Positions 1,845-9,741 of a stretch of DNA of 10,316 nucleotides are shown piece after piece. The stretch spans positions 15,297 through 25,612 of the forward strand of contig PMCC01000161.1 of the NCBI GenBank assembly GCA_003155275.1, read 5' to 3'. Within the stretch, counting starts at the first letter, position 1. Each line of letters opens with the position of its first letter. The notes beneath the pieces were generated by a model. It was given only the letters and a program-made list of their open reading frames with translations, did not search any database and was not told the origin of the DNA. Origin of the DNA: Actinomycetota bacterium. GTDB taxonomy: Bacteria > Actinomycetota > Humimicrobiia > Humimicrobiales > Humimicrobiaceae. Position numbers and translations under genes: made by a program.

Positions 1845-3032
1845 CTATTTTTCAATTACTTTTTTAATCCTTGCAAGACCTTCTTCTATGTTTTCCCTTG
1901 ATGTAGCGTATGAGAGCCTTATGTATTCCTCTTTCTCCTCGGCATTCCTGACGCCAAATGATGTTCGTGGCAGCACTGCGACATTGCCGTCATGCAGGAG
2001 CAGCTGCTGCATCGCCTGTGAGTCTTTCAGCCCTAAATTCCTGCAGGCTTGTGTAATATTGGGAAATACGTAAAAAGCTCCCTTTGGCAAAAGGCATTTA
2101 AAACCTTTGATATCATTTAATCCGGCAACTATCATATCTCTTCTTGCCTTAAACTCTTCAACCATGCGGTAAGTGTCATCCTGCGGGCCTTCCAGGCCTT
2201 CTATGCCGGCATATTGGGTAAAGGTGGCCGTGCACGTAATTATATTTGTATTAAGCGCAATCATTTGAAGAATAAGTTCTTTTGGCATTATCCCGTATCC
2301 AAGCCTCCAGCCGGTCATGGCATATACCTTTGAAAAACCGTCTACCAGAATAGTCCTGTCCTTCATTCCGGCAATAGAAATAATACTGTTAAACTCTCCG
2401 TCATAAACTATCCTGCTATATATCTCATCAGACATCACCCAAATATCATTTTCAATGGCTATTTTTGCTATGGCATTTAAATCCTCTTTTGAAAGTATGC
2501 CGCCGGTTGGATTCTGCGGGGAGTTAATTATTATCATCCTTGTTTTGCCGGTAATTGCTTTTTTTAAGTCATTTATGTCAAAGGAAAACTCCTTTTCCTC
2601 AAGCAAAGGCAAAGGCACGGATTTTCCCCCTACATAATTTATTAAAGATTCATATATAGGATAGCCTGGGTTGGGGTAAATCACTTCATCACCACTGTCT
2701 ATCAGCGCGCTTATAGCATTAAAAATAGCGGGTTTTGTACTTGGGGTGATGATAACATTATCCATATCGATATCAATATTTCTTGTGGCGCTTATATATC
2801 TTGCAACAGATCTCCTGAAATCAGGAACGCCGGCCGGAGGGCTGTAATGAGTCATATTATCATTTATGGCCTTTATCCCTGCATTTTTTATATTTAAAGG
2901 TGTATCAAAATCAGGCTCCCCGACTCCAAAATTAACAATATCCCTGCCTTGTTCCTTAAGCTTTGTCACCTCTGCTAAAACTACAAATGCATTTTCATTG
3001 CCCAAACGGCCCATTCTTCTAGCCAGCCTCAT
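1845..3032 (-). CDS. Class I/II PLP-dependent aminotransferase (aspartate aminotransferase-like)
   Basis: Transfers an amino group between an amino acid and a 2-oxo acid using pyridoxal phosphate (fold-type I, AspB/AspC-like). The start is set at the ATG at 3032, which has AAGGAG seven bases upstream. A longer reading to 3077 adds 15 residues with no ribosome site and departs from the family N-terminus. The protein is 395 residues, the normal length. Visible motifs are GEPDFDTP (38-45), NPTG (174-177), DEIY with Asp202 and Tyr205, the Schiff-base lysine in SKVYAMTGWRLGY (Lys235, with Arg243 for the cofactor phosphate) and the carboxylate-binding arginine in EYIRLSYA (Arg372). Substrate is not decided by these motifs; aspartate, alanine or branched-chain and aromatic acids are all possible. 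It follows the M20 amidohydrolase after about 200 AT-rich bases, so operon membership is likely but not certain. Confidence 0.93.
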   Translation of the reverse strand: MRLARRMGRLGNENAFVVLAEVTKLKEQGRDIVNFGVGEPDFDTPLNIKNAGIKAINDNMTHYSPPAGVPDFRRSVARYISATRNIDIDMDNVIITPSTKPAIFNAISALIDSGDEVIYPNPGYPIYESLINYVGGKSVPLPLLEEKEFSFDINDLKKAITGKTRMIIINSPQNPTGGILSKEDLNAIAKIAIENDIWVMSDEIYSRIVYDGEFNSIISIAGMKDRTILVDGFSKVYAMTGWRLGYGIMPKELILQMIALNTNIITCTATFTQYAGIEGLEGPQDDTYRMVEEFKARRDMIVAGLNDIKGFKCLLPKGAFYVFPNITQACRNLGLKDSQAMQQLLLHDGNVAVLPRTSFGVRNAEEKEEYIRLSYATSRENIEEGLARIKKVIEK

Positions 3033-3039
3033 TAGTATT

Positions 3040-3045
3040 CTCCTT
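3040..3045 (-). promoter_or_regulatory. Ribosome binding site that fixes the aminotransferase start
   Basis: AAGGAG on the minus strand sits seven bases before the ATG at 3030-3032. No comparable site precedes the upstream in-frame ATG at 3075-3077, so the shorter protein is preferred. Confidence 0.8.
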
Positions 3046-3233
3046 ATAACGTCGCGCCAAATAGCCCAATATTTCAAAATTATAAAAATCTGAAAGTTAA
3101 ATTCTACTTCAAATTACATTTTTTTTTAACTCTCAATTATAAAAACATTTTTTATATTTTTATTTTATTAAATACCATGAAGCAGAAAATAAAAAATTTC
3201 CTATGGCTCCAATCATAATATCTATTTATTTAC

Positions 3234-4418
3234 CTATAAACCTTTAGTTGAAGCTTCAAATTCTTTCTTTACGGCTATTAAAAATTCAGGATCAAGCATA
3301 ACTCTTGCACCTGTAAGAGCGATGCTTTTCATCCCAAGCATCATTCCCTCATATGCAATATCAGTTTTCCCGCATTTTAAGAATTCCTCTGTGTGCAGGG
3401 CTAAACCACCATTTGCTGTTTTAACCATTGGATGGATGACCGGCATCTCATAGCTTAAATTGCCGATATCGCTGGAACCTAAAAGAAAAGGTTCGTTATC
3501 TATTTCCCCGCCAAGAGACCTAAAATTTCTTTCAAACTCAGCAAGCAGGTTCATATTTTTTAACAGGTCATTTCCCGGATCTTCAAAAACTGATATTATA
3601 AGTTCTGCGCCTGTCTGAAGGGCCGCACCTTTTGCGCAATTCTTTACCTTTTCAACTACCTCATTTAAATATTTCCTCTGCCGGGCCCGGATATAAAACT
3701 GTGCCGCCGCTGTTTCAGGAATAATATTTACAGCATCCCCGCCTTTGGTTATAATTCCATGAATCCTGGCATCTTCCTTTAGCTGCTGCCTGAGCGCATT
3801 TATAGAGGTAAAAAGCAGTATGACTGCATCAAGGGCATTAATCCCTTCGTGCGGCGCTGATGCAGCATGCGAGGCTTTTCCCTTATATGTAAATTCAAGT
3901 CCTTCCAGAGCAAGCACAACAAGCGCAGTGGTGTTTTTCGAACCACCGTGAAACATGAGTCCGACATCCAGCCCTTTAAATGCTCCGTTTCTGCTCATCA
4001 CCCCTTTGGCGCCCATCCCTTCTTCAGCGGGTGTTCCCATAACAACAATTTTGCCGCACAATTGCCCACTCAGTCTGCTTAGACTAATGGCAGCATTTAC
4101 AGAAGCGGAGGCGATTATGTGATGATGGCAGGCATGGCCCATTTGAGGTAAAGCATCATATTCCGCAATAAAAGCGACAACAGGACCGGGTTTATTTAAG
4201 TCGAACTCTGCCCTGAAAGCTGTGGCAAGTGTCCCTACCCCGGTTTCAACAGAAAAACCGTTTCTTATTAATTCATCTGCAAGGTATTTTTGTGTATTGA
4301 ATTCCTTTTTTCCAATCTCAGGATTATCAAAAATATGGTCCGCCATCTCCCTGGCCCGAGACCCTATTTTTTCTACTTCAGATATAATTTTTTCCCGTAA
4401 AGAATCCAAAACTGTCAC
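3234..4418 (-). CDS. M20-family (M20D-like) metallo-amidohydrolase/peptidase
   Basis: A zinc-type amidohydrolase of the M20 family. Members hydrolyse amide bonds in N-acyl amino acids, aminobenzoyl-glutamate or small dipeptides. Numbered from the GTG at 4418 the protein has 394 residues, typical for M20D. Probable metal ligands and catalytic residues are His95 and Cys97 (GHACHHH), the Glu pair 132-133 (GTPAEEGMGAKG), His157 (MFHGG) and His342 (LALHTEE). The inserted dimerisation domain runs roughly from 170 to 285 and begins with the family motif KASHAASAPHEGINALDA. There is no signal peptide, so it is cytoplasmic. The overall pattern (EYDALPQMGHAC, SSDIGNLSYEMP) recalls AbgB and PM20D2. It lies 92 bases behind the B12-binding mutase subunit and was probably recruited to release an amino compound feeding the cluster. 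The substrate is unknown. Confidence 0.92.
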   Translation of the reverse strand: MTVLDSLREKIISEVEKIGSRAREMADHIFDNPEIGKKEFNTQKYLADELIRNGFSVETGVGTLATAFRAEFDLNKPGPVVAFIAEYDALPQMGHACHHHIIASASVNAAISLSRLSGQLCGKIVVMGTPAEEGMGAKGVMSRNGAFKGLDVGLMFHGGSKNTTALVVLALEGLEFTYKGKASHAASAPHEGINALDAVILLFTSINALRQQLKEDARIHGIITKGGDAVNIIPETAAAQFYIRARQRKYLNEVVEKVKNCAKGAALQTGAELIISVFEDPGNDLLKNMNLLAEFERNFRSLGGEIDNEPFLLGSSDIGNLSYEMPVIHPMVKTANGGLALHTEEFLKCGKTDIAYEGMMLGMKSIALTGARVMLDPEFLIAVKKEFEASTKGL

Positions 4419-4426
4419 TATACAAA

Positions 4427-4431
4427 CCTCC
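4427..4431 (-). promoter_or_regulatory. Ribosome binding site overlapping a decoy ATG; decides the GTG start of the M20 gene
   Basis: GGAGG on the minus strand lies eight bases before a GTG at 4416-4418. The first ATG of the frame (4431-4433) overlaps the first G of this Shine-Dalgarno core, so it is unlikely to be the start. The upstream reading would only add MEVCI. Confidence 0.7.
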
Positions 4432-4510
4432 ATTTGCCTAATAAATTACTATAGTCCTCCAAAGGACCGCCTAAATGTACATATCTATATGGAAAACTTT
4501 TTAAAGAGAT

Positions 4511-4921
4511 TTAGGTGCCGAACTTTTTACTGACAAGCTCCTCTACTGAATTAACAATTTCATCCCTTGTGGCGCCGGCAGTGTATACTCCCTCAAATCC
4601 GATATCTTTTAATTTGTCTCCGTCTTCTATTGAAAATATACCGCCAATTATAAATACCATACTGCATTTTAAACCTTCAGTTTCCGCATCGTCCAAAAGA
4701 TCCTTGCCAAGCGTCAGGTGAGCGCCGCACAATGAACTTACCCCGACAACATCCACATGCTCCTGGATAGCGATATTTAAAATTTCCTTCGGCATCGCAT
4801 TACCAAGATATATAACTTCCATTCCTGCATCACGGAGCATTTTTGCCACTGTAATGACTCCCCTGTTATGGACATCCAGCCCCAACTTTGCTAAAACCAG
4901 CTTTATCTTTCTGTCAGCCAT
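4511..4921 (-). CDS. B12-binding (small) subunit of a methylmalonyl-CoA-mutase-family acyl-CoA mutase
   Basis: A stand-alone cobalamin-binding domain of 136 residues. It carries adenosylcobalamin and docks on the catalytic subunit encoded just upstream. The His-on signature is complete: DVHNRG gives Asp16, His18 (the lower cobalt ligand) and Gly21, with Lys12 before it as in K604-M-G-x-D of methylmalonyl-CoA mutase. Further on are VSSL (61-64), which contacts the nucleotide tail, GG (93-94), and TAGAT near residue 115. The open frame extends upstream to 5011, but those residues overlap the end of the large-subunit gene and are hydrophobic and unlike the family. The ATG at 4921 has AAAGGA nine bases upstream and matches the usual N-terminus. 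The gap to the large subunit stop is 65 bases, so the two are co-transcribed and should be made together. Confidence 0.95.
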   Translation of the reverse strand: MADRKIKLVLAKLGLDVHNRGVITVAKMLRDAGMEVIYLGNAMPKEILNIAIQEHVDVVGVSSLCGAHLTLGKDLLDDAETEGLKCSMVFIIGGIFSIEDGDKLKDIGFEGVYTAGATRDEIVNSVEELVSKKFGT

Positions 4922-4986
4922 TTTTGTAAATCCTTTCTGCAATAAAAAAATATATATTATAAAACCTGTACTAAACTTAATTTCTT

Positions 4987-6750
4987 TTACCAGAAAACCG
5001 GCGGCTTCCATAACCCGAAAGATTTTTTAAATACCTTAAAAATCTCCCCAACGCTGCACCCAGACTGGGCGCACTCAAGTGAGAAAGGAACAATGTTTAT
5101 ATTTTTTCTGCAGGCATTTTCAAGCGCCGCCAGATTGGCGCCAACTTTTTCGTTATCCCTGCTCATCCTCAATTTGGCAAGTTTTGCCTTCTGTCTTTCT
5201 TCCACACCCTCCGGGTACCTGAAAATGTCAATTGTTGGTTTCTTTTGCTCTGCCGACCTGAAAACATTGCTTCCGACAAACTTGATGTCGCCTTTATCAA
5301 TAAGCTGTTTTTCCTTATAAAAGTAATTTGCAATCTTGTTATGGATCCAGCCTTTTTCAATTGACCTTACATAACCGCCCACTTTTTCTATTTCGCATAT
5401 CTCATCAAGTATCCTGTTTTCTATATCATTTGTAAGCGCTTCAACATAAAATGAGCCCCCAAGCGGATCGACAACTTCTGTTATTGCAGTTTCCTCCTGT
5501 ATTATCTGCTGGGTCCTTAAAGATAACAGGGCAGATTCCTCGGTAGGCACTGAATATGCTTCGTCGTAAGAATCCACATGCAGGGACTGTACCCCTGCAA
5601 AAACTGCTGACAGGCCCTGTACGGCGGCCCGTATCAGGTTATTCAGGGGCTCTTCCCTTACAAGGGAAATGCCGGATGTCTGCACGTGGCATCTCATCCA
5701 CATTGCCCTTGGGTTTTTTGCACCATATTTATATTTCATGATTTTATACCAGAGCCTTCTTACTGCCCTGATTCTTGCGACTTCCTCAAAGAAATCACTT
5801 GAGATCGACCAAAAAAATGCCAGTCTTTCAGCGATCCAGTCAGCCTCATAGCCTCTTCTTATCAACTCATCAAGGCTTTCCATGGCATTTGAAACTGCAA
5901 CAGCCATTTCAGTTACCCCCGATGTCCCGAATTCATGAAGGTTATATCCGTTTAATGTGGTAAAATTAAAATTCGGTACATTATTCTTTATATACTCTAT
6001 ATTGTCACACTGTACCCTGAAACAGTCTTTCGGAGGGATATATTCAGGGCCGCTTCTTACTACCTCTTCAAGAGTAATGTCATTCTGGACACTTCCTTTT
6101 ATGGCATCCAATGAATATCCCCTCCTTAATGCTGCAGCCATATACATCGGGAAAAGTATTGCGGTGTTTGAAGGATAATGGGTAACAAGTGAGACAGTAA
6201 CCTTATCAATCGGTATATCTTTAAAACATATCTCCATATCATCTGCTGAGTCTATTGCTACTCCGGACATACCGACCTGCCCTTTTGATATAGGGTCATC
6301 AGAGTCATACATCTGGGTTGTAGGAAGATCGTGTATAACGCTTAGACCGGTAGCTCCGTGTTTAAGCATATATTTTAATCTCTGGTTTGTCTCTTCGGGA
6401 CCACCAAAACCGTTTATCTGGCGCATCGTAAATTTTTTGCCCCTGTACATATTAGGGTGAACCCCCCTTGTAAAGGGTTCGCTGCCTGGCATTCCCAAAT
6501 CAAAATTATAATCAAAATCCGGTACCTGCGCCGGCGTATAAAGCATGTCCCTTGGGATTTCTGAACCCAGAATCGTATAAGGCGTTACGGTCCAATTCTG
6601 GCTGCCATCGGCCCCGGTATACTTGCTTTTAAGGGTATCGTAATCTTTTTTAATTGCATTTAACGTTTCTTTGTTGTAAAGCGGCTTGGGGTTTTCATTT
6701 TTAACCCTTTCATTTAAGATTTCCCTTGTATTTTGTTTCTCTGTTGCCAT
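4987..6750 (-). CDS. Catalytic (large) subunit of an adenosylcobalamin-dependent acyl-CoA mutase, methylmalonyl-CoA mutase family, with divergent active site
   Basis: A TIM-barrel acyl-CoA mutase subunit of 587 residues, the usual size for split mutases, with the B12 domain on the next gene. Family blocks are clear: MYRGKKFTMRQINGFGG (101-117), GLSVIHDLPT and YDSDDP (135-153), VGMSGVAIDS (159-168), VQNDI (221-225), RLAFFW (309-314), HVQTSG (355-360) and DPLGGSFYVE (428-437). Numbering against Propionibacterium methylmalonyl-CoA mutase, from memory of that enzyme, Gln197, Arg207, Asn236, Arg283 and Gln330 are kept as Gln222, Arg232, Asn262, Arg309 and Gln357. Tyr89 is Ile112, His244 is Asn270 and Ser285 is Ala311. 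The MYRG...TMRQI block resembles isobutyryl- and 2-hydroxyisobutyryl-CoA mutases more than methylmalonyl-CoA mutase. Substrate is therefore open: methylmalonyl/succinyl-CoA or a substituted relative. GGAAGG lies nine bases before the ATG. Confidence 0.93.
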   Translation of the reverse strand: MATEKQNTREILNERVKNENPKPLYNKETLNAIKKDYDTLKSKYTGADGSQNWTVTPYTILGSEIPRDMLYTPAQVPDFDYNFDLGMPGSEPFTRGVHPNMYRGKKFTMRQINGFGGPEETNQRLKYMLKHGATGLSVIHDLPTTQMYDSDDPISKGQVGMSGVAIDSADDMEICFKDIPIDKVTVSLVTHYPSNTAILFPMYMAAALRRGYSLDAIKGSVQNDITLEEVVRSGPEYIPPKDCFRVQCDNIEYIKNNVPNFNFTTLNGYNLHEFGTSGVTEMAVAVSNAMESLDELIRRGYEADWIAERLAFFWSISSDFFEEVARIRAVRRLWYKIMKYKYGAKNPRAMWMRCHVQTSGISLVREEPLNNLIRAAVQGLSAVFAGVQSLHVDSYDEAYSVPTEESALLSLRTQQIIQEETAITEVVDPLGGSFYVEALTNDIENRILDEICEIEKVGGYVRSIEKGWIHNKIANYFYKEKQLIDKGDIKFVGSNVFRSAEQKKPTIDIFRYPEGVEERQKAKLAKLRMSRDNEKVGANLAALENACRKNINIVPFSLECAQSGCSVGEIFKVFKKSFGLWKPPVFW

Positions 6751-6863: not shown

Positions 6864-7008
6864 CTTTCTGTCACTTAGAAATACTTGTTTTTTCCATCAG
6901 TTTATGAATTCTTGTTCTTTCCACCAACTTTTAAATGCTTGTTATTAATATCTGTTTTTTAATATTTAGTTTTAATATTCAGGCTTTCAATAATTTTTAA
7001 CGCTTGTT
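6864..7008. repeat. Imperfect direct repeats of about 26 bp spanning the meaB stop and the meaB-mutase gap
   Basis: On the plus strand units of the form CTTTC(C)A-rich...CTTGTT occur at 6864-6889, 6890-6916, 6917-6943 and 6984-7008. The first three are tandem, and their CTTGTT cores at 6884, 6911 and 6938 are spaced exactly 27 bases. Windows of 27 bp starting at 6881 and 6908 match at 20 of 27 positions by hand count. The fourth unit lies inside the last codons of meaB, so the intergenic copies may be decayed duplicates of that coding end. Confidence 0.5.
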
Positions 7009-7930
7009 CATACGGGTCAGCCTTCTTTTGGGCAATGTCTATTATGACTTTATTAAATTCTTCTTTTGATGCAAAGCTTTTTCTGAAATAATCCACGAAA
7101 TAACTGTAAACCTCATCTTTAAGCTCCTGCCCTGCCCGCTGCTTCAAATACTTGTCCTTCTTAAACTCTAAAAAATATTCCCTGTGGCTGTTTATTTCCT
7201 GAATCAGCTCGTCAAATCCTTTTTGCTCCATGGCGCTTGTAAGTATTATTTTTTGCTGCCAAATTTGATGATTTGGCTGGCCGCCGGATAAATCATCCCG
7301 GTTACTTATAAGAGACTGCATGTTCTGTAAAAGTTCACCAGGATCTGTTTTATCTATTTTGTTTATTACAAATATATCTCCTATTTCAAGAACACCGGCT
7401 TTTATTGTCTGCACATAGTCACCCATCTCAGGAACCAGCACAAGCACTGTCGTATGGGCAAAGTTCATTATGCTTACTTCGGTCTGTCCGACACCAACTG
7501 TTTCAAGGATTATCACGTCTTTTCCCATTGCATCCAAAATATTTATAATTCGGGCAGCCGATCTTGAAAGGCCGCCATACCATCCCCTTGTTGCAATGCT
7601 TTTTATAAATACCTTGTTATCTGTAGAATGTTCAATCATCCTTACCCTGTCTCCGAGTATAGCGCCGTTTGTAAGAGGGCTTGATGGGTCAACTGCAACA
7701 ACTCCCACACTTTTGCCCTGTTCCCTGTAATGCTTGATAAGAAGGTTAACAATAGTGCTCTTTCCAGAGCCCGGAAGGCCTGTTATCCCAAGTATGTATG
7801 CTTTACCGGTATGAGGATACAAGTAGTGCATATCATCATAGACATCAGGCGATTCTTCCTCTACTTTTCGTATCAGCTCAGCAGCTGCCTTTATTTTGCC
7901 TTCAATTACTTCTTTTGCTAGTCTGCTCAT
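6959..7930 (-). CDS. meaB: MeaB-type G-protein chaperone of the B12-dependent mutase
   Basis: A P-loop GTPase of the MeaB/ArgK (MMAA) family. It gates adenosylcobalamin loading and protects or reactivates acyl-CoA mutases. From the ATG at 7930 it has 323 residues, the family norm. Motifs are Walker A GLPGSGKST (51-59), VDPSSPLTNGAILGDRVRM (80-98), ETVGVGQTE (143-151) and the guanine-specificity motif NKID (190-193). A longer open frame reaches 8008, but those 26 residues overlap pta out of frame. The ATG at 7930 overlaps the pta stop in an ATGA arrangement, which indicates translational coupling. Its presence next to the two mutase genes confirms that they encode a true B12 mutase rather than a B12-binding regulator. 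The C-terminus ends inside a stretch of short repeats. Confidence 0.95.
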   Translation of the reverse strand: MSRLAKEVIEGKIKAAAELIRKVEEESPDVYDDMHYLYPHTGKAYILGITGLPGSGKSTIVNLLIKHYREQGKSVGVVAVDPSSPLTNGAILGDRVRMIEHSTDNKVFIKSIATRGWYGGLSRSAARIINILDAMGKDVIILETVGVGQTEVSIMNFAHTTVLVLVPEMGDYVQTIKAGVLEIGDIFVINKIDKTDPGELLQNMQSLISNRDDLSGGQPNHQIWQQKIILTSAMEQKGFDELIQEINSHREYFLEFKKDKYLKQRAGQELKDEVYSYFVDYFRKSFASKEEFNKVIIDIAQKKADPYEQALKIIESLNIKTKY

Positions 7931-8973
7931 ATAAGCCCTGCATCCTCCATACCCTTTAACTGCATCAGAGTCATGGAAATCAGCGCTACAATATCTTCCA
8001 CCAGGCACCCCCTCGACAAATCATTAAACGGTTTCGCGGCACCCAGCACAACTGTTCCGCAGACTTCAGCCTTGGCAAGTCTTTGAATTATCTTATACCC
8101 TATATTTGCAGAATTTATTTCCGGAAATATTAGGACATTTGCTTTGCCTTTTACCGGACTGTCAGGGCATTTGATAGAGGCAACTTCAGGTACTATTGCC
8201 GCATCGAATTGAAGTTCCCCGTCAATTATCACATCAGGGTAAATCTTTTTGACTCTTTGCACCGCATTTCGTATTTTGTTAAATTCATCACTTTTTGCGC
8301 TTCCTTTTGTTGAATATGAAAGAAGAGCCACTACAGGCTCCTGGCTGAAAACCCCCTTTGCAGTTTCGTATCCGGACAAAGCCATATCAACAAGCTGATC
8401 TTCGGTTGGCTGCGGGATTATTGCAGGATCCGAAACAAGGAATTTGCCTTTTATTCCGAAATTACAGTCGGGAACTTCGACAAAAGCTGCCCCGCTTAAA
8501 GTTTTTTTGCCCCCCGATAAGCCTAATACGTTTATTACGGCTCTCATCAAATCAGCAGTTGAACTTATTGAGCCCCCGACCGCACAATCAACCTGGCTAT
8601 TTTTAAGCATAACAGAGGCCCAATAAGAAGGGTTGAGTACATTCTCATCCAGTTTTTCGTCTGTTATTTCTTTATTTCTTTTTTCAAATGATGATTTTAT
8701 TATGGATTTATAATCGTTTCTATCTTTTGAGGCAGCAGGGTCTATTATATAAAATCTGTCAGTGTTTTTAATTCCGGCTTCTTTTATTTTTTCTGCAATC
8801 CCTGTCTGGCTTCCGATTAGGTAAAAACTGCTGTTATTATAATCCTGAAAATAATCAAGCGCTTTTATAAGTCTTATGTCATTTCCATCGCTAAAGGCGA
8901 TTTTTCGTTTTATGTTTTTTGACCTGTCAACAAACTCCCTTATAAAAGTGCTTTCGGTTACATTTTTATTCAA
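7927..8973 (-). CDS. pta: Phosphate acetyltransferase (phosphotransacetylase)
   Basis: Interconverts an acyl-CoA plus phosphate with an acyl phosphate plus CoA. With acetyl-CoA this feeds acetate kinase and yields ATP; members also accept propionyl-CoA. The protein has 348 residues, near the usual 330 of the short single-domain Pta. Family motifs are AVGGSISSTADLMRA (131-145), SDPAIIPQPT (181-190), SYSTKGSAK (219-227), DGELQFDAA (251-259) and the active-site block KPFNDLSRGCLVEDI (314-328), with Ser320, Arg321 and Asp327 matching the catalytic Ser/Arg/Asp of characterised Pta. The start is a TTG at 8973 with a near-perfect AGGAGG seven bases before it. It begins 15 bases after the gntR stop and its own stop overlaps meaB by four bases, so the three genes form one transcript. 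Phosphotransbutyrylase is less likely, given the SRGCxVEDI block. No acetate kinase is in the window. Confidence 0.93.
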   Translation of the reverse strand: MNKNVTESTFIREFVDRSKNIKRKIAFSDGNDIRLIKALDYFQDYNNSSFYLIGSQTGIAEKIKEAGIKNTDRFYIIDPAASKDRNDYKSIIKSSFEKRNKEITDEKLDENVLNPSYWASVMLKNSQVDCAVGGSISSTADLMRAVINVLGLSGGKKTLSGAAFVEVPDCNFGIKGKFLVSDPAIIPQPTEDQLVDMALSGYETAKGVFSQEPVVALLSYSTKGSAKSDEFNKIRNAVQRVKKIYPDVIIDGELQFDAAIVPEVASIKCPDSPVKGKANVLIFPEINSANIGYKIIQRLAKAEVCGTVVLGAAKPFNDLSRGCLVEDIVALISMTLMQLKGMEDAGLI

Positions 8974-8988: not shown

Positions 8989-9741
8989 TTAATAGTCTTT
9001 TTCAAAAACAAATTTTCCGTTGGCAGGATTAAAAAATTCTTCAAAATACATTGTCCTTGGGCCGTTTGAATGCTCCACTGTCCAGAATGTCTGCAGATAA
9101 TGGACTATTTTTTTTGAACTGCCATCAAGGTTTAAAAGTGTGGCCGTTTCATCATCCGGAATCGCCGGTTCAAGCACCCTTTTTGAATGAGTAAGCTTTA
9201 TCTTTAATATTTTTGTAATAATATTAGTGAAAGAATTCCCGGTGAGCAGAGATTTTTTTATCTTGCCTGTTAAATCATACGGCAGATATGCTTTTGTTAC
9301 ATACAGAGGTGCGCCATACGCAAATATAATCCTTTTTACAAAGAGGATCTTCGCATCATTTTCAAGTTCAAGGATTTTTAATATTTTTTCATCAGGAATC
9401 ATGACTTTATTTTCAAGTATTTTATTTAAAGTCTTAATACCTTCATTTCTTAATTCATCAACAATACTTGATACTTTCTGGAGCGAGTGCGTTTCAATTT
9501 TTTTCCTGATAAAAGTGCCCTTGCCGCGTTCCCTTGCTATGTAGCCATTGATTTCCAGCTCTTTTAAGGCCTGTCTTACAGTGATTCTGCTGACACCATA
9601 CTTTTCACAAAGCTGTATCTCTCCAAACAGCCTGTCCCCTTCTGAAAGCATGTTTTTCTCAATGCTTTCAACGATATTTTCATAAAGCTGGTAGTAGTAA
9701 GGAACTTTTAAGTTTTTATTGATTTTAAGTTCGGCTATCAC
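8989..9741 (-). CDS. GntR-family transcriptional regulator, HutC subfamily (winged helix plus UTRA domain)
   Basis: A one-component regulator of 250 residues, typical for HutC-type proteins. The N-terminal winged helix begins at PYYYQLYENI (14-23), has the recognition helix SRITVRQALKEL (51-62) and the wing ARERGKGTFI (69-78). The C-terminal effector-binding UTRA domain covers about 85-245, with family features such as the YVTKAYLPYDL strand and YFEEFF near the end. It is the first gene of the pta-meaB-mutase cluster and probably represses it until a pathway metabolite binds. The only workable start is a GTG at 9741; an in-frame TAG lies five codons upstream, and no Shine-Dalgarno site precedes the GTG. 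This region is one copy of a degenerate direct duplication. The ligand cannot be named from sequence. Confidence 0.93.
   Translation of the reverse strand: MIAELKINKNLKVPYYYQLYENIVESIEKNMLSEGDRLFGEIQLCEKYGVSRITVRQALKELEINGYIARERGKGTFIRKKIETHSLQKVSSIVDELRNEGIKTLNKILENKVMIPDEKILKILELENDAKILFVKRIIFAYGAPLYVTKAYLPYDLTGKIKKSLLTGNSFTNIITKILKIKLTHSKRVLEPAIPDDETATLLNLDGSSKKIVHYLQTFWTVEHSNGPRTMYFEEFFNPANGKFVFEKDY

Follow-up and report, generated by a model that had tools for sequence, protein, structure and literature searches.

The window analyzed here, a 10,316-nucleotide stretch from the genome of an uncultured Actinomycetota bacterium (G000; 2.18 Mb, 85% complete), carries on its minus strand genes for, in order, a GntR/UTRA regulator, a phosphotransacylase, a MeaB protein, a mutase large subunit, a B12 subunit, an M20 amidohydrolase, a class I/II aminotransferase and a UvrD-type helicase. 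The large, substrate-binding subunit (4987..6750, minus strand) is full-length with 587 amino acids, has a PF01642 domain scoring 557 bits, and scores above the TIGR00641 cut-off; it is the sole PF01642 gene detected in this 85% complete genome. Its best PDB match is 4r3u, both by sequence and by fold, the latter judged from a structure model (mean pLDDT 78.4) that we used for the overall fold and for helix 225-231. The adjacent B12-binding small subunit (4511..5011, minus strand; TIGR00640, PF02310) retains the DVHNRG motif. Its ORF shares 25 bases with that of the large subunit, and its true start is probably an internal Met. With a mutase domain above the curated cut-off and a B12 partner containing DxHxxG, the enzyme belongs to the acyl-CoA mutase superfamily. 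The MeaB-type GTPase chaperone (6959..8008, minus strand; TIGR00750 above cut-off) has kept its P-loop, in line with the initial annotation of this DNA, which called both partner proteins intact. Further along the same strand lie the phosphotransacylase (Pta-like; 7927..8973, PF01515) and the GntR/UTRA regulator (8989..9741; PF00392, PF07702), which is also found close to the mutase in relatives. On the other side of the mutase are the M20 amidohydrolase (3234..4433, minus strand; TIGR01891 above cut-off) and, between this gene and the helicase, the aminotransferase (1845-3077, minus strand).

HMMER and MAFFT alignments with solved mutases pair Asn270, Ile112, Ala311 and Lys106 of the window enzyme with His244, Tyr89, Ser285 and Arg82 of MutB, and Arg232 with Arg207, in line with the four replacements and the retained arginine read initially from the sequence. 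The codons of Asn270 (5941..5943) and Arg232 (6055..6057), both on the minus strand, were located by counting from the ORF start at 6750. No alternative histidine is seen for the His244 column, because the GYH/GYN motif aligns free of gaps. The placement of Arg232 hinges on a one-residue insertion: proteins with Asn at this column have one additional residue between QND and PP, and Arg232 corresponds to Arg207 provided that the insertion lies after it. Arg232 is at +10 from QND, the same offset as Arg207 in MutB, although one MAFFT run set the gap ahead of the arginine and paired Ser233 with Arg207. The predicted helix 225-231 immediately precedes Arg232 in the structure model, which favors an insertion in the following loop and hence the pairing of Arg232 with Arg207. 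The Arg82 column is variable, with Arg in many members of the Arg-keeping sub-branch described below and Lys in the window enzyme, and the column of HcmA Asp117 holds Ile. His140 (6331-6333) occupies the column of MutB Phe117, next to that of HcmA Asp117; His is found here in 10 of 119 scored proteins, namely the query and its nearest relatives, and Phe in 102. His140 could be a lineage-specific active-site histidine.

Relatives that share the asparagine were readily found. Among the matches listed (the best 120 of 7,893), all 119 homologs other than the query have Asn at the His244 column, as do 18/18 full-length loci (L002-L019; 55-84% identical), which come mostly from Actinomycetota and otherwise from Bacillota, Thermodesulfobacteriota and Candidatus Methanoliparum; the partial locus L020 lacks this region and is outside the count. 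Because Asn is constant in both sets, it reflects neither a sequencing slip nor a decaying gene. The position of Arg232 is Arg in 120/120 close proteins, query included, among the matches listed. A second search with a related mutase as query returned proteins that, among the matches listed, all have Asn at the His244 column and Gly at the Arg207 column (120/120 each).

We calculated a tree from 49 chosen mutase rows, 32 with Asn and 17 with His, a set without any row known as ethylmalonyl-CoA or isobutyryl-CoA mutase, IaaG or ActD/MatB. The mutase of L059/L089 is absent from it, as it was masked by a longer overlapping frame and detected by tblastn. Asn and His rows fall on the two sides of a single branch with 100/100 support; since the root is a midpoint, we use "branch" in the unrooted sense. 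The Asn side comprises the Rcm type with Gly at the Arg207 column (98/95), a GYNYREAG type (100/100), and an Arg-keeping sub-branch (100/100) that includes the window protein and is sister to the Rcm sub-branch (100/100). A 100/100 branch also separates the window protein from MutB/MMUT. The Arg-keeping sub-branch occurs in 12/40 genomes of the window's class and in 14/395 genomes of a Thermodesulfobacteriota sample (at least 57% identity to the Desulfoscipio geothermicus protein). As sampled and as judged from sequence, Asn is the mark of a whole branch and not a peculiarity of the window gene, and the notion of an unprecedented active site gives way to a branch-wide pattern. A literature search, covering work other than studies focused on HcmA or RcmA, returned no mention of Asn at the His244 position.

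The Asn branch appears to include an already assayed enzyme. The 2-hydroxyisobutyryl-CoA mutase of Bacillus massiliosenegalensis was purified (kcat 0.29 per s), and the large-subunit positions P163, V92, E137 and E102 were changed, according to passages of PMC11599936; an Hcm as well as an Rcm form are ascribed to this species (PMC7176365). P0159, the representative of a 90%-identity cluster with the source name Robertmurraya massiliosenegalensis, has V92, E102, E137 and P163 all present and carries Asn253, as well as Gly at the column where the window sub-branch has Arg. Of the 240 proteins compared, 11, P0159 among them, have these four residues at the same numbering. The assayed enzyme therefore fits the Asn type, P0159 matching 4/4 of the published wild-type residues and aligned HcmA-type proteins 1/4. 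The initial view that His244 is conserved across 2-hydroxyisobutyryl-CoA mutases does not hold for this enzyme. Related literature includes PMC7888143, PMC4103992 and PMC13188929. P0175 from K. tusciae, which we infer to be the published RcmA, has Asn248 and matches 2/4 residues when aligned, as expected for a different species.

Desulfoscipio geothermicus DSM 3669 (L013), which we take to be the renamed Desulfotomaculum geothermicum, encodes a mutase 60% identical to the window protein, with Asn, Arg, Ala and, in place of Ile112, Leu. The neighboring genes encode, in order, the small subunit, a pair of HGD-D proteins, a pair of BadF ATPases, a BtrH-like protein and an enoyl-CoA hydratase. In the passages of PMC8084838 the D. 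geothermicum mutase is acetone-induced and proposed to be a 2-hydroxyisobutyryl-CoA mutase, with no mutase assay there. The gene order at L013 agrees with the acetone-induced cluster of that report (101202, 101201, 101198/101197, 101194, 101193; PMC8084838). Near the mutase of the D. copahuensis locus L017 lie genes for a TPP lyase (55% identical) and an HMG-CoA-lyase-like protein (71% identical). Published identities between Desulfococcus biacutus and D. geothermicum are 46.9% for the mutase and 55.2% for the TPP lyase (PMC8084838); the corresponding values for genome G292 against D. geothermicus are 47.9 and 54.7%. As the G292 mutase has Asn and Gly, the closeness of these figures suggests, short of proof, a place for D. 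biacutus in the Asn branch.

We compared gene neighborhoods at 30 loci, where genes were labeled by similarity to proteins of the window, D. geothermicus, Methanoliparum and a few others, and dissimilar genes were left unnamed. In the window's own family, Pta lies near the mutase in 9/11 loci and MeaB in 10/11, the contigs of L002 and L004 being cut near the mutase; the Pta genes of L109, L110 and L113 are downstream of the mutase and only 44-51% identical. No ligase of the HCL (2-hydroxyisobutyrate-CoA ligase) type is present in the window or in 9 checked family loci; eight of these have no ligase hit, and L110 has two ligases of the phenylacetate type. The M20 gene sits beside the mutase in 2/11 family loci (L002, L003). 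The aminotransferase was labeled in 0/30 loci and may be a recent insertion, because L002 and L003 lack it at the corresponding position. These two genes had raised an indoleacetate pathway (IaaGH, benzylmalonyl-CoA) as a candidate, which we rejected on its neighbors rather than on the IaaG sequence: M20 is confined to L002 and L003, the aminotransferase recurs at none of the 30 loci, and no iaa-type gene is found among the Pfam-named neighbors, many neighbors being unnamed.

Outside the family, ten Thermodesulfobacteriota loci (mutases 62-70% identical) include eight with an HCL-type ligase after the small subunit, three of them following an HGD-D-type gene pair; in the remaining two the contigs end at or just past the mutase. 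Identity of the ligases to a solved 2-hydroxyisobutyryl-CoA synthetase (6hdw) is 48-58%, against 32-35% for phenylacetate-CoA ligase; as the eight were compared because they had been labeled beforehand, the fair count is 8/10. HCL-type ligase was labeled in 0/9 of the other Arg-type loci (L013-L019, L106, L107). In a control of 50 loci, mostly with 1.5-kb flanks and with some genomes represented twice, we scored ligases as HCL when HCL outscored PCL and found HCL within 1.5 kb of 9/32 Asn-type mutases (6/23 Arg, 3/5 Gly, 0/4 others) versus 0/18 of the His type; 17/23 Arg-type loci had none within this distance. HcmA-type operons (PM1, Py2), which are of the His type, do carry HCL, which makes HCL a marker of substrate rather than of Asn. 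By eye, the HCL motif stretches are similar beside Arg-type and Gly-type mutases.

Several loci have distinctive neighbors. At L100 (286-12769), an ATP-grasp/CoA-binding ligase-like pair, an HpcH/HpaI lyase and glycolate-oxidase-like genes lie upstream of an Asn/Arg mutase, a B12 subunit and HCL, a set that might be expected if malyl-CoA is made; genes that by eye resemble a TRAP transporter follow the HCL. The Asn/Arg mutase of Ca. Methanoliparum (L019, 2697-18126) belongs to a run of thiolase, dehydrogenase, enoyl-CoA hydratase, HGD-D and BadF genes; about 5 kb beyond this run lies an MCR-type alpha subunit. Because neighbors range from HGD-D dehydratases to malyl-CoA-type genes and an MCR-type subunit, the function of the Arg sub-branch may not be uniform. 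On the Rcm side, two genomes (L091, 6571-9462; L092, 2806-5786) have an HpaB-family gene, possibly 4-hydroxybutyryl-CoA dehydratase-like, after the mutase and HCL; the family call rests on Pfam for the L091 copy and on the start of the gene for L092.

The window genome, 85% complete, was also searched for supporting functions. No HCL-type ligase was detected (best hits 36-37%, of the phenylacetate type), and no acetone-type TPP lyase (best 29%). There are two Pta genes, 61% identical to each other, the second of which adjoins acetate kinase, and a thiolase, a crotonase and a 3-hydroxyacyl-CoA dehydrogenase are encoded in one run (C77). An acetate-kinase-like gene of this genome (L139, 9095-10265) appears as two adjacent ORFs, either a split gene or an assembly error.

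We propose that the window encodes a functional AdoCbl-dependent mutase of the Asn branch, whose substrate is most likely 2-hydroxyisobutyryl-CoA or a near analogue, a reading to which we give about an even chance. Large and small subunit would form the active mutase, kept active by MeaB, and would interconvert a branched 2-hydroxy-2-methylacyl-CoA, either 2-hydroxyisobutyryl-CoA or a close analogue, with a linear 3-hydroxyacyl-CoA, here 3-hydroxybutyryl-CoA, by migration of the thioester group. Asn270 may take over from His in binding the thioester carbonyl, and Ile112 would provide a non-Tyr pocket as in hydroxyacyl-CoA mutases. The operon Pta, together with an acetate-kinase-type enzyme encoded elsewhere, could activate the acid or recover ATP, and the two would stand in for the AMP-forming ligase found in known hcm operons. 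A thiolase and a 3-hydroxyacyl-CoA dehydrogenase, also encoded elsewhere, would convert the product to acetyl-CoA. This substrate is supported by the position of all Asn rows, Rcm type included, on one fully supported side of the tree and by the assayed enzyme that fits the Asn type; by the frequency of HCL beside Thermodesulfobacteriota and, in the control, Asn-type mutases, and by the similar HCL motif stretches at Arg- and Gly-type loci; by the acetone-induced relative with its matching gene order; by the resemblance of the operon to those of the Hcm type on two plasmid sequences (GntR, B12 subunit, ligase, MeaB, mutase); and by the thiolase/crotonase/dehydrogenase run, the acetate kinase and the fold match to 4r3u. 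Against it, Arg232 (Gln in HcmA, Gly in the Rcm type) and Ile at the HcmA Asp117 column fit neither assayed type. HCL was not found within 1.5 kb at most Arg-type control loci or labeled at any of the nine distant ones, the window genome, though only 85% complete, has no detected HCL-type ligase or acetone-type TPP lyase, and neighborhoods vary within the sub-branch.

An arginine at this position suits a carboxylate, and the substrate could be a carboxylated acyl-CoA that also bears a hydroxyl or a larger group. Arg232 would then bind the carboxylate, as methylmalonyl-CoA mutase does, and Ile112 and Asn270 would leave space for a 2-hydroxyl; in favor of this, the listed close proteins all have Arg and those listed on the Rcm side all have Gly. 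Conversion of 2-hydroxy-2-methylmalonyl-CoA to malyl-CoA or of citramalyl-CoA to 3-hydroxyglutaryl-CoA would be examples, and the genes upstream of the mutase and HCL at L100 agree with such chemistry. L100 is, however, one locus of ten, this Arg is shared by the acetone-induced relative, no difference in HCL motif stretches is apparent by eye between Arg- and Gly-type loci, and such reactions did not appear in the literature passages, which were searched by terms other than reaction names. We regard a carboxylated substrate as doubtful. The dicarboxylic acyl-CoA envisaged at the outset keeps some ground through the arginine and the malyl-CoA-type genes of L100, but the neighbors of relatives point more to the 2-hydroxyisobutyryl-CoA type.

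The retained Arg207 equivalent and the status of the gene as the sole one of its Pfam family would also be compatible with a residue-altered mutase for methylmalonyl-CoA or for an alkylmalonyl-/alkylsuccinyl-CoA (plain MCM, or ethylmalonyl-, hexylmalonyl- or benzylmalonyl-CoA type). For other pathways, mutases that act on larger alkyl- or benzylmalonyl-CoA have been proposed (PMC5719088, PMC8360864), and a carboxyltransferase is among the acetone-induced D. geothermicus cluster proteins (PMC8084838). In the tree the window protein is nevertheless separated from the MCM rows with full support; it has lost both Tyr89 and His244, and its Pfam-named neighbors, among many unnamed ones, include no epimerase or iaa-type gene; we consider this assignment quite improbable. 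Plain propionate metabolism, a candidate prompted by the single PF01642 gene, was rejected on residues and tree, which bears out the early judgment that the enzyme is not a plain methylmalonyl-CoA mutase. Mutation of His244 damages MutB, for which an H244A structure exists (1e1c), and a protein that has lost this residue could be an inactive or non-mutase relic retained by chance. Constancy of Asn throughout the sampled branch, conserved catalytic surroundings and partner genes, and an assayed relative that fits the Asn type make a dead protein, already discounted in the initial annotation, very unlikely.

In acyl-CoA mutases, the histidine regarded as an invariant catalytic residue gives way to Asn in a whole branch that spans several bacterial phyla and one archaeon; one enzyme type of this branch has been assayed and has served as a lactyl-CoA mutase scaffold. 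As Asn marks the whole branch, which appears to include an assayed enzyme, the question shifts to the substrate of the Arg sub-branch. This Arg-keeping sub-branch, with its own operon type and with no assayed member found in our literature search, is what is new here, and its members lend themselves to tests for new substrates and of the histidine's contribution.

Among known systems, isobutyryl-CoA mutase has a Phe/Gln pair at the Tyr89/Arg207 positions, where the window enzyme has Ile/Arg. HcmA (4r3u) shares with the window enzyme Ile at Tyr89, which is thus not unusual even alongside His, and Ala at Ser285. The operon of its near-identical PM1 copy likewise has GntR, B12 subunit and MeaB genes. 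The HcmA-type signature, which we take to be Ile90, Asp117 and Gln208 (HcmA numbering) with His, is matched at Ile only: the window enzyme has Ile, Arg and Asn in place of Asp, Gln and His, lies on the opposite side of the tree, and has in its operon no HCL ligase, the gene expected in a 2-hydroxyisobutyryl-CoA mutase operon. MutB/MMUT resemble it in fold, in Arg207 and in a MeaB-type partner (for MMUT, PMC10356863), but at 36% identity to MutB, Tyr89, His244 and Ser285 are all replaced, and of the methylmalonyl-CoA mutase signature Tyr89, His244 and Arg207 only the arginine is kept. The acetone-induced D. geothermicum mutase, the relative with Leu for Ile112, differs in its cluster, which has acetone-type TPP lyase and HGD-D dehydratase genes that are not seen around the window gene. 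Rcm-type enzymes (B. massiliosenegalensis, K. tusciae) have Gly for Arg232 and Ser for Ala311, and fall outside the window's sub-branch, and the window operon carries Pta in place of a ligase. P0159, the protein that fits the assayed enzyme, is 48.6% identical to the window protein. With these enzymes the window enzyme shares Asn at the His244 position, Ile or Leu at Tyr89, a separate large subunit and membership in the Asn branch.
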